From Gracilaria domingensis (taxonomy: Eukaryota; Rhodophyta; Florideophyceae; Gracilariales; Gracilariaceae), in the NCBI GenBank assembly GCA_022539475.1, contig VCMS01000058.1, positions 124,001-188,000 of the forward strand: a DNA stretch of 64,000 bases, read 5' to 3'. The notes under the pieces were generated by a model. It saw only the letters and a program-made list of their open reading frames with translations, ran no database searches and had not been told where the DNA came from. Shown here one piece after another: positions 21,599 through 28,204 of this stretch. Within the stretch, counting starts at the first letter, position 1; the number at the start of each line of letters is the position of its first letter. The translations under genes were made by a program, and so were the position numbers.

Positions 21599-23977
21599 TC
21601 ACTCACCGTCACGAGCCGGTTCTGTCCGGTTGTTGTCCTCATTCGGTGTTTCGCCTGGTATTTGATCGTCATCTTCGATACCTTCATCTCGATCAGATCT
21701 CATCAACCTTCTTTGACGAGCATTTACGACAACAACCAGAACGCCAAGCAACAAAGTGACTATGACGATATCGCTAATATATCGACTGTACTCCTCGTAA
21801 AGCCCAGACAGCAATTTAAGGCCTCCAAACACAATCTCATAGTGTTTAAGACCAAACACGGCAATCGTAGATGGCAGCCACGCGTCGGCATCATGTGTCA
21901 TCGCACGATCAAAATATCGCTTAGCAATATGCTTGTCAGGATTCATACCAAATCCTCTCGCATGCATCCAACCAAGATTAAAATATGCCTCCGCACTTCC
22001 AGCGCGGCTGGCCGTTTCGTACGCGACAGCTGCCTTTGGGTAGTCGCGCAATTCGGCAAAAGCCAAATCGCCGATACGAATCATGCTTAGAACGTCTCCT
22101 TGAGCCGCAGACATGGAATACATTTCAATGGCTCTGTGAACAAGTTCTTCCCTAGCAGGCGTAGCAGCAGAGCTACCTCGGTCAGCGATGGTTCCCTTTT
22201 CATACATGAAGCCAGAATTATACTGAGCAAGTTCCAATCCGGCATGTGCCGCTTTGAGATATCGATACAGTGCCTGCGCATACATTCCCTTCTCGTGCAA
22301 CCGCCCAGCTGTGTCCAGATATGTTTGCCACACGCCAGATTCGGCAACCTTCTTGAGATTGGAAACGCCCTCAGCGCAATCGTACTTGATTGGTGGTTCG
22401 CCGGAGAGATAACGCAACCCCAACTTGTACGAAGCCTGTATATGATCCAGCGCAGCAGCGTGAGTGAGACAAGTAATCGCATCAATAGATGATTTGCGCA
22501 CTCCAATACCTTCTTCATAAAGGTACGCAAGATGGTAAAACGCATCAGGATGCTCCTTTTCACTAGCTTTTCGAAAGAACGCAGCCGCAATAGTGGCATT
22601 TTTAGCAAGGCCTATTCCATAAAGGTAAGCAAAGCCCAACGCATTCAACGCGTTACGCTCCTTCTTTTCTGCAGCAGCATAAAAGTGTTGAATGGCAGTA
22701 TCGTTATTACCAGCACTAAGGTGAATAAAGCCCAACAGCGCATGAGCATCAGGTCTACCCGAGTCGGCGGCACTCTGAAACAGCGTGGTCGCTCGACGAA
22801 CGTCTGTCTCAGAACTGTGGTCCGAGTATATGAGTTTGGCAAATTCAACCTGCGCACTCGGATCGCCTCTGTTGGCGGCGCGCTCCACGTATTGCACAAC
22901 CTCGTCAGAAGCGCGAGGAGGACGCCCCTCACGCAGTCTTCTCCGCGGCGGCGGTGTCAAGAACGACGGCAGCAGGATACGTAACGGAGTACTCGAAGGG
23001 ACAGTGGCGTTTGCAACAATCTTGTACAAGTCAGATGCGCGCGGGCAGTCTTCCGACACAGACAGGGCGACGTGATAACGATGCGCAAGTGCCATAGAGG
23101 CGTAGAGTGAACCGCCCTCAGCAGCAATGGTCCAATGAAGCAAGGCGGCGGGCTCGTATTTCGGAACAATGGGCTGGGCGACTCCGGTGGCGTACAAAAG
23201 GGCGAGCTCAGCGTGTGCGTGAGGGTTGCCTCTGTCGGCGGCTTGTCGCAGTAGATGAATGGCTTCCGAGTGCGAGAGAGGACTGTGAGGGATGTTTGAC
23301 AGGGTTGCGACGGCGATTGCGTGGATGGCGGTTGAGCTGTTTGATTGGTGAATGTGGTGAAGTAAGGCGTTGTAGGCGGATGTGAGTTGATCTGCAGTGC
23401 TGAATGGATCCTGCAGGGCGTCAAAGTGTGGAAGAAGATGGGCGGGTGACGGTTTGGTTTGGAGTTGATCGGAAAGGCGAAGCGTGGGTGGTGGTTGTAC
23501 TGGTTGTTGTGGTGGCTGGTATGGCGGTTGCGGGGGCAGTTTAGATGTCAGTTGTTGAGATTCGGGGGAGAGTTGGGATTGGGGTGGAGGTTGAGAGGAA
23601 GGATTTTGGGAGTTGGCGAGAGCTTGGCGACGAAACTCGTGGTAGTCGACTTTGCTAACGGCGCTTCGCAAGGCAGTGAGAGGTAGCTTGTGGTACAGGT
23701 TGCCGACGGTGATATCCACAAACGACGCATCAAACACAGAGGGATCATCCACGACGGCGGCAGGGATAACAAACGAGATAACAGTATGGTTATGAAACAA
23801 AACGCTCGGCGCGGCCACGCCATTAATGAGGACGACGAGCGGCGACGACCGAAAGCTCTCGCCGCGAAAGACGGCGACATACTGCATGCGGTCGTCCTCA
23901 TCTGCGGCGGCGCGCGCGCGCCAGGCGGCAAAGAGCAGCAGCAGCAGCGGGAGAAGAAGCTCGCGGAACGGCGCCAT
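21599..23977 (-). CDS. SEL1L: SEL1L/HRD3-like ERAD adaptor
   Basis: From the ATG at 23977 the protein has 792 residues and begins with a signal peptide (A-P-F-R-E then a leucine run, cut near A-R-A-A-A). Residues about 215-705 are a series of Sel1-like repeats, with recurring A-L-L-Y-A-T-G, A-L-A-Y-L-Y-G-I-G and L-G-W-M-H-A-R-G-F-G units. One membrane helix near residues 735-755 is followed by a short basic tail. This is the layout of Sel1L/Hrd3, which recruits misfolded glycoproteins to the Hrd1 ligase in the ER lumen. A proline/glutamine-rich linker occupies about residues 120-190. An upstream in-frame ATG at 24118 would bury the signal peptide, so 23977 is preferred. Confidence 0.9.
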   Translation of the reverse strand: MAPFRELLLPLLLLLFAAWRARAAADEDDRMQYVAVFRGESFRSSPLVVLINGVAAPSVLFHNHTVISFVIPAAVVDDPSVFDASFVDITVGNLYHKLPLTALRSAVSKVDYHEFRRQALANSQNPSSQPPPQSQLSPESQQLTSKLPPQPPYQPPQQPVQPPPTLRLSDQLQTKPSPAHLLPHFDALQDPFSTADQLTSAYNALLHHIHQSNSSTAIHAIAVATLSNIPHSPLSHSEAIHLLRQAADRGNPHAHAELALLYATGVAQPIVPKYEPAALLHWTIAAEGGSLYASMALAHRYHVALSVSEDCPRASDLYKIVANATVPSSTPLRILLPSFLTPPPRRRLREGRPPRASDEVVQYVERAANRGDPSAQVEFAKLIYSDHSSETDVRRATTLFQSAADSGRPDAHALLGFIHLSAGNNDTAIQHFYAAAEKKERNALNALGFAYLYGIGLAKNATIAAAFFRKASEKEHPDAFYHLAYLYEEGIGVRKSSIDAITCLTHAAALDHIQASYKLGLRYLSGEPPIKYDCAEGVSNLKKVAESGVWQTYLDTAGRLHEKGMYAQALYRYLKAAHAGLELAQYNSGFMYEKGTIADRGSSAATPAREELVHRAIEMYSMSAAQGDVLSMIRIGDLAFAELRDYPKAAVAYETASRAGSAEAYFNLGWMHARGFGMNPDKHIAKRYFDRAMTHDADAWLPSTIAVFGLKHYEIVFGGLKLLSGLYEEYSRYISDIVIVTLLLGVLVVVVNARQRRLMRSDRDEGIEDDDQIPGETPNEDNNRTEPARDGE

Positions 23978-24280
23978 AACAGAGAGCAGAGCGGGACGCG
24001 CTCCGGCCGACGCTGCGCGGGGGGGGGGGGGGGGGGGTGCGAGCGGCGCGCGCGCGTGGAAGAGCGCCAGCGCGCGCTTCGCGAGCGGAGCAACGCTGTT
24101 AGCGCGGCGCCAACGCACAATCTAAATGCGCCCACTCGCGGCCGACCACCTGTCAGGCAGTCAAAGTGGGCGCGCCTCCGCCACGTGTCCACGCGCGCGC
24201 CACGTCACGCGCGACGCTGATCTGCGCCGCGACGAGCTCGCGCGCGGCCGCGGGGACGGCGCACCGCGCACCGCGGCGCC
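23978..24280. promoter_or_regulatory. Short divergent promoter between SEL1L and the PsbQ-like gene
   Basis: Only about 300 bp separate the two start codons. It contains a G run of about 20 (24020-24038), which is a C run on the SEL1L coding strand just upstream of its ATG, and several alternating CG runs. No TATA box is seen. Confidence 0.4.
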
Positions 24281-24309
24281 ATGGCTTTGAGCGCGCGCGG
24301 AACGGCGGC

Positions 24310-24340
<31 letters not shown>

Positions 24341-24901
24341 TTCGTACGCGGCGCGGCGCTGCCGCAGCTTCGGCGCGGCGCGGCGCTGCCGCAGCGTTGG
24401 CGCGGCGCGGCGCGCCGAGGCGGCGGCGCGGGCGTGGTGAGCGCGCGGCTGTCGCGGCGCGCGCTGCTGGCGGCGCCGCTGGCGCTGGCGGCGCCGCTGG
24501 CGCTGGCGGCGCCGCGCGCGGCGCGCGCGGACCGCACGGGCAAGTTCTCGACCAAGCTGACGGCGAAGCGGCGCTACGTGCCGCGCATCACGCGCGGCGC
24601 GCAGGCGGTGCTGCGCGGCGAGACGGACGTGGCGCTGCTGGACGACATGCTGGCGGCGATGGGCTTGTTCGGCACCACGTACTTCTCGGAGGGAAACCGC
24701 GTCGGGGAGCGCGAGCGCGCGCTCGACGAGTGCGTGGAGGGCGGCAGGGCGGCGCTGCGGCGGCTGCTGGACGCGCGGCGACGCGGCGACTTGGACGGCG
24801 AGCGCGCCGCGTTGCAGGCGCTCCAGCGCGCCGTCGCGCAGTGGCTGCAGGTCGCCGACTACGAGCGCGTTGCTGGCGTGACGCTGCTGTCGTCGTCTTG
24901 A
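24281..24901 (+). CDS. Lumen-targeted PsbQ-like four-helix protein
   Basis: A 206-residue protein. The first 55 residues are alanine/arginine-rich as expected of a plastid transit peptide. A twin-arginine, thylakoid-transfer-like segment follows (S-R-R-A-L-L, then an alanine/leucine core ending A-R-A near residue 85). The mature part of about 120 residues is mainly helical, with Y-V-P-R-I, a G-L-F-G-T-T-Y-F-S-E-G-N-R block and two C-terminal amphipathic helices. This fits extrinsic photosystem II PsbQ-type proteins of the red lineage, which stabilise the oxygen-evolving complex. The match is by architecture and short motifs only; another lumenal four-helix protein is possible. Confidence 0.6.
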
Positions 24902-25591: not shown

Positions 25592-27055
25592 ATGGCTCTC
25601 AGCAGTGCTGAGAGCAGTACCATGCTGTTGGTCATTGTCACAGCATTGCTCCACAACCTCAAGCAGCTCGCGCAATGTACTCCGGTAGCTGCGCCGCCAG
25701 TCGGCAACTCGTTCAAGCAAGCGAATAGCGCGCTCTCAAAACACTCCATTCGACTGGTGGACCTCACAGATGGTCCGTTCACGCCGCTGTCAAATCACAT
25801 CCCGCAGTCAAGCTGTCCCTTGATGTCCACCGAGTTCACGTTCATTCTGCACACTCCCAACGGCATGAGGGTGCCACACTCTCGAATGCTTGTGGATGGG
25901 CTCAAGTGCGGCAACATGGCCGACAATGCCACGGAGCAACAGCTGTTCGCCGACCCGTTCATGCAACTGATGGAGATTGACTCTCTGAAGGACGAGGATA
26001 CCGCGCGCGCAAACGGTGTGTACAACGCGTACTACGAGCTGCACACACTGAGCCGGCCGTTTCCAAAGTCGTTCTTCGACTTTATGCTGCGAGAGCGATT
26101 CGATCGAGGGCTCATGACGTACATCGGCTTCGAACGATACTCGGCGCGCGTGTGCACCAACGGGCGCGAAAGCGTTCGCGTGGAGAGGGGAACGATGGTG
26201 TTCATAGGCGGCGTTCACGGCAAAAACGTGAGCGTGACGCAGCTGATCAGCCGTCTACCGCACGGAAAGCAGGTGTACCTGCCGCCCAACAACCCGTACC
26301 AGATGTCGTTCACGCCCGACGGCGGCAAGGATTCGGCCGAGCACGTGTGCGCGCTCAAGCTGGACTGGCGCAATCGGCGCGGAACGTCGAGCAACGGGTC
26401 GGCGCACGAGCGCGGCGACGTGCGCATGTGCTTCTCCGGCGCGGGCACGCTGCGGCGCGCGGACGGCGCGGTGGTGCGCATGCGCGAGCTGCAGGTGGGC
26501 GACGTGGTGCGCTCGACGCGCGACGAGCTCAGCGACGTGTTCCTGTTCAGCCACCGCGACGCGCGCGCGCGCAGCGCGATGGTGTCGATCGGCTGCGCGA
26601 ACGGCGCGCGGCTGCAGCTGTCGCGCGGGCACTACGTGCGGCGCGCGCGCGGCGCGCTGCTGGCGGCGCGGCTGGTGCGCGCGGGCGACGTGCTGCAGAC
26701 GACGGCGGGGCCGTCGGCCGTGCGCAGCGTGGCGCCCAGCTGGGGCGCGGGGCTGTACAACCCGCACACGCTGAGCGGGCTGGTGGCGGTGGGCGGCGTG
26801 GTGGCCAGCTGCTACACCACCGCCGTGCCCGCGCGCACCGCGCACGCGCTGCTGGCGCCCGCGCGCGCCGCGTACCGGCTGGCGGGGCGCGCGCGCTGGA
26901 CGCGCTGGGCGCGGCTGCTGCGCGCCGCCGCGCCGCTGCTGCGGCGCGCGCCGCCGCCGCCGCCGCCGCCGCCGCTGCTGCGGCGGCTGCTGCGGCTGCT
27001 GCGCGCGCCGAGCGCTCTGCCGCGCGCGCGCGCGCGCGCGCTGGCCACCAGCTGA
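25592..27055 (+). CDS. Hog (hedgehog-type Hint) domain protein with novel N-terminal region
   Basis: A 487-residue protein. Residues 11-28 are hydrophobic and may be a signal peptide or anchor. Residues 30-275 match no family I know. A Hint module spans about residues 279-408: the catalytic cysteine opens C-F-S-G-A-G-T-L, followed by M-R-E-L-Q-V-G-D-V-V, V-F-L-F-S-H-R-D, L-S-R-G-H-Y-V (the block-B histidine) and V-G-G-V-V-A-S-C-Y. The last block matches the hedgehog Hog ending rather than the intein H-N ending, so the protein probably self-cleaves at C-F and may attach a nucleophile to the N-terminal part. The last 80 residues are arginine/proline-rich. Composition rises sharply in GC from residue 230. 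The start is the first ATG in frame. Confidence 0.82.
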   Translation: MALSSAESSTMLLVIVTALLHNLKQLAQCTPVAAPPVGNSFKQANSALSKHSIRLVDLTDGPFTPLSNHIPQSSCPLMSTEFTFILHTPNGMRVPHSRMLVDGLKCGNMADNATEQQLFADPFMQLMEIDSLKDEDTARANGVYNAYYELHTLSRPFPKSFFDFMLRERFDRGLMTYIGFERYSARVCTNGRESVRVERGTMVFIGGVHGKNVSVTQLISRLPHGKQVYLPPNNPYQMSFTPDGGKDSAEHVCALKLDWRNRRGTSSNGSAHERGDVRMCFSGAGTLRRADGAVVRMRELQVGDVVRSTRDELSDVFLFSHRDARARSAMVSIGCANGARLQLSRGHYVRRARGALLAARLVRAGDVLQTTAGPSAVRSVAPSWGAGLYNPHTLSGLVAVGGVVASCYTTAVPARTAHALLAPARAAYRLAGRARWTRWARLLRAAAPLLRRAPPPPPPPPLLRRLLRLLRAPSALPRARARALATS

Positions 27056-27331
27056 GCTGACGCGCCGCAGATGCAGTAAAAACGAACGCGCTTTCCCGCG
27101 CGCGCGCCGCTGCTGCGCGTGACGCGCTGCGCGCGGCAGCGGGCGCCGCTCGCGCGGCGCTGTGCTGCTGTGCTGGCGCGCCGCGTGCTCGCCGTCAGCC
27201 AGCGCGTCGCGCGCCGCGCCGCCGTCCGCCGTCCGCCGTTTCCTCGCCTGCCCCGCGCCAACGTCGCCTTCGTCGCCTTCCCCCCACCTCCCCCACCTTC
27301 TTCTTCTGACTTGCTCGCTTTGCAGCGCGTC

Positions 27332-28204
27332 ATGCGACGACTCGCGCTCGCGATTGCGCTGCTTGCGTCGTTGGCAGCGCGGCTGACGCGGAGCGACGAC
27401 AATGAGTCGCTCAACGCGTACATCCCCGCCACGCACAAGACGCTGTTCGAGGAGTACAGCGCGCTGGTGTTCGGCGACATCTCGGTGGCCAAGGCGGCGT
27501 TCCGCGGCGCGCTGGCCGTGCAGGGCAAGGCGGAGCTGGCCGACTTTGACATTGGCGCCGACAGGATGTGCGACAAGGAGCGGCGCGCGGTGACGGTGGG
27601 GCGCTCGCTGACGGCGCGCATGGGCTCGGTGCACGGCGGCTACTCGGTGGTGGGGCGCGGCAGCAAGGTGCACCACAGCGTGCGCATGACGTGCTCCAAC
27701 CGCGTGGAGCAGTACGACGCCGTGCACAACGGCGACGTGGAGTTTGACGACGTGCGGCGCTCGGTGCTGCGCGAGGCGGCCGAGATGTGCGTCAGCGCGC
27801 CGACGGGCAGCGTGGAGAGCGCCAACGGCACCATGACCTTCACGCCGGCCGAGCAGCGCTTCTCGTGCTACAGCTTGTTCAAGCTGCGCACGGAGGAGCT
27901 GCGGCTGGTGAAGCGCTGGGTGTACGCGGGGCCGGACGCGCTGCGCAACGTGGTGATCGTGGTGTCGGGGCTGCGCGCCGAGCTGCGCGACTTTCGCATG
28001 GAGCGCTTCAACGCGCGCCGCACGCTGCTGGTGTTCTGCGCCGTGTACGGCTCGTTCGAGCTGTACAACGCCAAGCTGCACGGCTCGGTGCTGGCGCCGA
28101 CGGCGTCGCTGACCACCATGGAGACGGTGGTGAACGGCTCGCTCGTCGTGGGCGCGCTGCGCGGCTCGCTGGCCGCGCTGGGCACGCCGTATGTCACGTG
28201 CTGA
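27332..28204 (+). CDS. Secreted choice-of-anchor-A-like (CAA) domain protein
   Basis: A 290-residue protein with a signal peptide (M-R-R-L-A-L-A-I-A-L-L-A, cut near residue 20). The remainder resembles the choice-of-anchor A domain of bacterial and fungal surface proteins: an opening L-V-F-G-D-I-S-V strand, repeated short beta strands with V-Q-G-K-A and V-G-R-S, and the late pattern L-H-G-S-V-L-A-P-T-A-S-L-T followed by V-N-G-S-L-V-V-G-A-L. Such proteins are extracellular and bind or coat cell surfaces. It lies 276 bp downstream of the Hog gene on the same strand and shares its very high GC. A C-rich pyrimidine tract precedes the ATG. The wider open frame upstream lacks a convincing start. 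Confidence 0.65.
   Translation: MRRLALAIALLASLAARLTRSDDNESLNAYIPATHKTLFEEYSALVFGDISVAKAAFRGALAVQGKAELADFDIGADRMCDKERRAVTVGRSLTARMGSVHGGYSVVGRGSKVHHSVRMTCSNRVEQYDAVHNGDVEFDDVRRSVLREAAEMCVSAPTGSVESANGTMTFTPAEQRFSCYSLFKLRTEELRLVKRWVYAGPDALRNVVIVVSGLRAELRDFRMERFNARRTLLVFCAVYGSFELYNAKLHGSVLAPTASLTTMETVVNGSLVVGALRGSLAALGTPYVTC

Follow-up and report, generated by a model that had tools for sequence, protein, structure and literature searches.

A large family of red-algal Hog proteins with varied N-terminal modules and a natural histidine at the Hedgehog Asp303 position

Introduction

Covalent cholesterol attachment has been described as singular to Hedgehog proteins (PMC7242414). At the locus studied here, a Hog domain stands at the end of a secreted-looking protein in an alga, and we ask what this domain carries, whether its active site is intact, and to what it might join its cargo. 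The locus lies in the window, a 64,000-nucleotide stretch of DNA belonging to a 77.9 Mb assembly of 680 contigs (G000), and the initial annotation, made from the letters of the window, had read it as an algal Hog protein with an undescribed N-terminal domain, which would be a secreted, modified signal or matrix protein if self-cleavage attaches a lipid or other nucleophile. That interpretation is, as a whole, partly supported. The label of alga, more exactly of red alga, fits the assembly: of its 14 matches to the phycobilisome linker family (PF00427), four lie on one contig, C680, presumably the plastid, and the remaining ten are spread over eight further contigs. A Hog protein is present as claimed, but such a protein in an alga is no longer a novelty, as red-algal Hogs with odd N-termini are already published (PMC2362128, PMC9812998, PMC13353863).

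The red-algal and protist Hogs described by Burglin in 2008 likewise combine a secreted N-terminus with a Hog domain; in the red-algal members the motif J cysteine is changed to serine, threonine or aspartate, and the N-termini are conserved only within groups (PMC2362128). The Cyanidiophyceae likewise have expanded Hog gene sets (2 to 17 genes per species) with Thr/Pro/Ala-rich linkers and no HhN domain, and a possible role in building the matrix through lipid modification was suggested earlier for Hogs outside the Hedgehog proteins (PMC9812998, PMC13353863).

Results

The Hog gene and its parts

The gene is a single open frame on the forward strand, within which we distinguish the following parts, given by window coordinates, strand and content.

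25592..27055, +: coding sequence of the Hog protein, 487 aa, single open frame, ATG to stop
25592..25675, +: signal-peptide-like N-terminus, by hydropathy only (without SignalP)
25622, +: alternative start M11, inside the signal-peptide-like N-terminus
25757..26359, +: four-cysteine N-domain, residues 56-256, with C75, C106, C188 and C253 (paralogue profile, alignment A1)
26429..26818, +: Hint core, from C280 to just past the S-C-Y motif (Pfam, PDB comparisons, alignment A2)
26429..26431, +: catalytic Cys280, equivalent to Hedgehog C258 (35/35 in A2)
26552..26554, +: His321, at the Hedgehog Asp303 (D46) position (A2 columns; profile alignment to 6td6 and 6tyy)
26621..26632, +: S344-x-x-H347, the TxxH motif (A2 columns)
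26807..26815, +: S406-C407-Y408, motif J, Hedgehog C400 (A2 columns)
26819..26911, +: adduct recognition region with the A-H-x-L-L-x-P-x-R motif (A2 columns, 6td6 alignment; end set by us)
26912..27052, +: Pro/Arg/Leu-rich C-terminal tail (ORF translation)

Residues 277-431 belong to the Pfam Hint family (PF01079) with E 1.3e-20 and a score of 74.4 bits, where the cut-off is 29.7; the identity of the domain is therefore not due to chance, and a phmmer search of the PDB (E <= 1) returned four sequences, all of them Hedgehog (best E 0.00069). The intact catalytic cysteine and histidine and the S-C-Y ending that had been claimed for the module are all in place, as C280, H347 and S406-C407-Y408. 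Besides Hint, the Pfam scan of the protein at E <= 1 gave nothing: the N-terminal part matches neither HhN nor any other family, which agrees with the earlier view that it is unlike the Hedgehog signalling domain, and the scan gave no Kelch domain and no nematode Wart or Ground(-like) N-domain, the last judged from Pfam, which may not include these domains. A signal-like N-terminus is suggested by the hydropathy (3.11) of the hydrophobic stretch at the first Met. The C-terminal tail of the protein is odd and aberrant, with 79 residues after motif J against a median of 48 (range 25-79) in the 36 Hogs described below. An 888-aa ORF antisense over the Hog gene was ascribed to high G+C. Single-sequence AlphaFold models had a mean pLDDT of 32.5 in the N-domain and 38.6 in the Hint domain, were unusable and supply no fold evidence.

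Neighbouring genes in the window

The minus strand at 21599-24118 encodes a Sel1-repeat protein (Sel1 E 6.7e-22), which we take to resemble an ER-degradation factor of the SEL1L/Hrd3 type. At 24281-24901 on the plus strand lies a small protein with a transit-peptide-like twin-Arg start and no Pfam match at E <= 1, presumably resembling a PsbQ-type lumen protein. The gene that follows the Hog gene is:

27332..28204, +: secreted-looking protein with an ice-binding-like adhesive domain, pAdhesive_15 (ATG chosen by hand)

The domain was matched (PF20597, E 3.1e-28) on the longer ORF 27119-28204, and the family has no more than 3 matches across the genome, of which two are interrupted by a stop; a bacterial origin of the gene is a guess. 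We treat it as a neighbour of the Hog gene.

Hog genes across the assembly

The window protein finds at least 46 places in the assembly at E <= 0.01, and the Hint family at least 45, of which 42 are over the cut-off, these counts being lower bounds with fragments and near-copies among them. Besides the window gene, 40 Hint loci were read. By eye, two of these (L053, L054) are broken and a third (L051) has a frame break, whilst L023 resembles a near-copy of L024, and L050 of L049, on different contigs; the near-identical pairs suggest separate haplotypes or recent duplicates, and raw Hog counts are therefore somewhat inflated. Thirty-five distinct readable loci plus the window gene make the 36 Hogs used in the tree, in contrast to the 2 to 17 genes per species of the Cyanidiophyceae and to the available text of PMC2362128, where each red alga is credited with between one and six Hog ORFs or fragments. 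A hydrophobic stretch at the first Met (hydropathy > 2.3) is present in 25 of the 36, as compared with 4 of 152 later Mets; the other 11 show none in the frame read, and may lack a first exon or start elsewhere. No relative was confirmed in phages, viral contigs or prokaryote genomes, none of the pattern matches there (14 in viral contigs, 509 in prokaryote genomes) being one.

The Patched family was found at four places in the same assembly, on contigs C7, C176 and C252. These proteins could be sterol transporters, and we rejected the family as a sign of Hedgehog signalling, since matches were also found in 3 of 14 control genomes, archaea.

A four-cysteine family and other N-terminal modules

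The N-domain had been called undescribed, which stands in so far as Pfam gave nothing for it at E <= 1 and the best PDB chain reached only E 0.74; the match to a well-known family that would have spoken against the original interpretation thus did not appear. It is not a one-off, however, and belongs to a four-cysteine family in this genome. A profile seeded with six paralogues gave the window protein 8.1 bits (iE 0.11; best decoy 2.8) in its first round and, in a second round of 12 members with the window protein still left out, 14.3 bits (iE 0.0013; best shuffled decoy 4.4), the decoys being 25 shuffles per N-region. The domain is present in 14 of 37 N-regions (L051 counted; the L038 region is somewhat short), and three more (L030, L047 and L048) share the cysteine pattern by eye and were left uncounted, at iE >= 0.055 in every round. 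Across the 13 rows of alignment A1 (L051 left out), four cysteines, one glycine and one arginine are invariant, and four conserved cysteines in a putatively secreted domain suggest two disulphides. Against the PDB the profile found no significant match, its two hits (E 0.74 and 1.4) being taken as chance. Searched singly against the assembly, the window N-domain returned only itself and one match at E 3.2, and that of L017 returned itself, L026, L041, L015 (E 0.038) and one partial copy with a stop on contig C401; such single-sequence searches miss distant members, and they gave no clear Hog-less protein with the four-cysteine domain in the assembly. The family is not mentioned in the available text of PMC2362128.

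Other Hogs carry other modules. The Pfam scan, which covered 38 of the 40 loci (L053 and L054 left out; L021 from an inner start) and the window gene, found fasciclin in three of them (L028, L029, L033), and, fused to Hog, a trypsin domain in L037, Temptin_C in L038 and a 41-residue piece of the copper type II monooxygenase C-terminal domain in L020; the pentapeptide repeats that it gave for L049 and L050 do not reach the cut-off. The fusions in L037, L038 and L020 would put an adduct on enzymes or pheromone-like proteins. Linkers before Hint are often acidic or Ser/Pro-rich. The modules thus include four-cysteine, fasciclin, trypsin, temptin and others, whereas Kelch is the fusion partner in many cyanidiophycean Hogs (PMC9812998, PMC13353863).

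In the tree of the 36 Hint domains, 22 of 33 inner branches are open and 6 are starred, and the bootstrap has not settled. On this tree the four-cysteine label is unclustered: it needs 10 changes, the shuffles need 10.8, and 186 of 500 shuffles do as well. All ten module labels taken together are somewhat clustered, needing 18 changes where shuffles need 20.9, a value reached or undercut by 6 of 200 when shuffled; three of these labels ("pentapeptide-like" for L039, "Cys-rich" and "propeller") were set by eye. One starred join pairs two fasciclin Hogs (L028 and L033), and starred joins also pair unlike modules (L021 with L049, L036 with these two, and L029 with L039), for which reason modules may have been exchanged among Hogs, long branches such as that of L049 making this unsure.

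A histidine at the general-base position

Alignment A2 holds 35 of the 36 Hogs; L038 was left out, and its row outside the alignment shows the same Cys, His and His. The first cysteine (Cys1), a histidine at the Asp303 position and the TxxH histidine are each found in 35 of 35 rows, window protein included, a count that leaves out the broken copies L051, L053 and L054 and that is, for Cys1, partly by construction, as the rows were cut at this cysteine. The aligned relatives in this genome have therefore not lost the catalytic residues, the outcome that had been named as speaking against the original interpretation. The domains themselves are very diverged, the median end branch in the Hint tree being 1.26 changes per column, and the retention of all three residues in spite of this implies purifying selection. 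The active site is therefore not simply of the hedgehog type: its cysteine and histidine are, but the place of the general-base aspartate is taken by His321 in the window protein.

Elsewhere the site varies more. The first position of TxxH is T in 19 rows and S in 16. At the motif J cysteine position A2 has C in 5 rows, T in 25, S in 3, A in 1 and V in 1, so that the cysteine is lost in 30 of 35, and the window protein keeps S-C-Y. Beyond motif J the columns read A in 34, H in 24, L in 32, P in 33 and R in 33 of the 35 rows; the window protein has A-H-A-L-L-A-P-A-R, and Hedgehog in the profile alignment shows a corresponding A-H-x-x-L-A-P-x-R stretch. The motif names are those of PMC2362128, and equating the A-H-x-L-L-x-P-x-R stretch with motif K is our reading. 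Before Cys1 stands a glycine, as in Hedgehog (PMC13060885), in 1 of 36 Hogs, with alanine in 13, valine in 9 and, in the window protein, methionine.

Searched against the PDB, the A2 profile matches Drosophila Hedgehog (6td6) at E 4.8e-26, across Hint and into the first part of the sterol recognition region. Hedgehog chains score 72.8 to 94.7 bits, and inteins and intein-like chains at most 24.1 bits; an intein with a C-terminal splice junction and a C-extein was rejected on these scores and because S-C-Y closes the domain and is followed by a tail of the adduct type. The D303H crystal chain 6tyy (88.9 bits) scores above the wild-type chain 1at0 (82.0 bits), and the histidine column of A2 aligns with the aspartate of the wild type (6td6) and with the histidine of 6tyy. 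The window protein shares with animal Hedgehog the Hint core, C258, a TxxH-type motif, S-C-Y and the first part of the sterol recognition region, and differs from it in having no HhN match, His for Asp303 and Met rather than Gly before the cysteine; the algal adduct region is also shorter.

The D303H mutant of 6TYY retains its structure and remains active on cholesterol, while coprostanol and epicoprostanol become much better substrates (PMC9163320), so that the idea that Asp-to-His kills sterol transfer is not supported, whilst D303A blocks cholesterol transfer (PMC9163320, PMC13060885). The D303 mutants A, N, R and E speed cleavage by DTT (PMC9163320), loss of the aspartate can therefore free the first step. 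What in Drosophila Hedgehog is a laboratory mutant is the natural state in 35 of 35 aligned algal Hogs: a base swap that was shown to work when engineered occurs here of its own accord. Some nematode Hogs may differ at the D303 site. In the available text of PMC2362128 the terms "histidine" and "D303" have 0 occurrences; its alignment figures may show that residue, and a natural His at this site may already be in print.

Discussion

The reading that we prefer, at roughly even probability, is that the Hog domain severs the secreted ectodomain from itself and attaches a sterol or similar alcohol to it. The signal peptide would take the precursor into the ER, the disulphide-bonded four-cysteine domain would be the cargo, and the C-terminal Hog domain would cut itself off. 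C280 would form an internal thioester with the preceding residue in an N-to-S acyl shift helped by S344/H347, and His321, replacing Hedgehog Asp303, would activate a hydroxyl nucleophile bound in the adduct recognition region. This nucleophile would most likely be a membrane sterol, and the cargo would leave with a lipid on its C-terminus. Cholesterol has been described as the major sterol of living red algae (PMC10692144), which makes a sterol our first guess, and unrelated polypeptides can replace the N-terminal cargo without loss of SHhC activity (PMC13060885, a preprint). With several unrelated ectodomains on it, the Hog module looks like an all-purpose C-terminal tag on surface or matrix proteins and less like part of one signalling ligand. 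One cyanidiophycean alga has haploid cells that lack a wall, and Hog expression in such cells would favour a role at the membrane surface. Haploid cells are the main site of expression for 8 of the 10 Hog genes of that species (PMC13353863).

Against a sterol adduct count the residue other than Gly before the cysteine in 35 of 36 Hogs, the short adduct region (median 48 after motif J) and the widespread loss of the motif J cysteine, mutation of which inhibits both steps in Hedgehog (PMC4695875); the 11 Hogs that show no hydrophobic stretch and the odd tail of the window protein also count against our reading. The non-Gly residue and the short adduct region would suit a self-cleaving maturation device, in which Hog only releases the N-fragment by hydrolysis (or thiolysis) and makes no adduct, and so would the faster DTT cleavage of the D303 mutants (PMC9163320) and the ability of Hint alone to carry out the N-S shift and hydrolysis in Hedgehog (PMC4695875). 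However, neither the invariant D303-site histidine nor the kept A-H-x-L-L-x-P-x-R stretch is obviously needed for pure hydrolysis, and D303H retains sterol transfer, and we think release without an adduct rather unlikely. That the domain has degenerated into an uncut structural tail seems very improbable: the window protein does have S for T in TxxH, Met before the cysteine and an aberrant tail, and three copies are broken, but Cys1 and both histidines persist in every row of A2 despite the long end branches.

Sterol could also give way to a different partner, another hydroxyl or an amine, for example on a sulphated galactan matrix sugar, so that Hog would weld proteins to the wall. Fasciclin, temptin and trypsin modules point to the cell exterior, and linkers that are acidic or rich in Ser/Pro are common; the neutral term adduct recognition region was used because it was not known what Hogs other than Hedgehog attach (PMC2362128), and D303H tolerates more substrates, though those tested are sterols (PMC9163320). 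The conserved hydrophobic region, whose counterpart in the alignment is the first part of the sterol recognition region, nevertheless fits a membrane lipid better, and attachment to wall sugars appears improbable to us.

If a sterol or similar alcohol is indeed joined to the cargo, this perhaps stands in place of a GPI anchor. GPI-anchor biosynthesis is apparently missing in Rhodophyta according to a survey in which the red-algal genomes examined had no PIG-A (PMC3797821), and our assembly agrees with it, having no match for PIG-A (PF08288), Gpi16 (PF04113) or Gaa1 (PF04114), which does not prove their absence because the controls for these families were weak (no match at all for Gpi16 and Gaa1, one below the cut-off for PIG-A). 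STT3, another ER membrane protein, was found in the assembly at 5.1e-90. Fasciclin occurs at 5 places in the genome, 3 of which are Hog fusions, and the idea that Hog replaces GPI on every fasciclin was rejected, as the other two places (C92, C36) are on contigs that have no Hint place in either of the two assembly searches. A search of the open-licence literature found no paper joining the Hog domain, the GPI anchor and a red alga, and, judged from that literature, the link between Hog and GPI loss may be unpublished. As far as the literature was searched, the four-cysteine family, the variety of modules, the histidine in 35 of 35 rows and the possible tie to GPI loss are new.

The broader proposal, that red algae, apparently without GPI anchors, use Hog as a general C-terminal lipid anchor, with secreted modules cut and sterol-esterified by the His-variant site, is one that we hold as tentative and doubtful. 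Dozens of base-swapped Hogs, together with no match for three GPI families, make the role of Hog outside animals directly testable. If the proposal is true, Hog would be a substitute for GPI, and the cholesterol chemistry of Hedgehog would be an old, general tool for tethering proteins.
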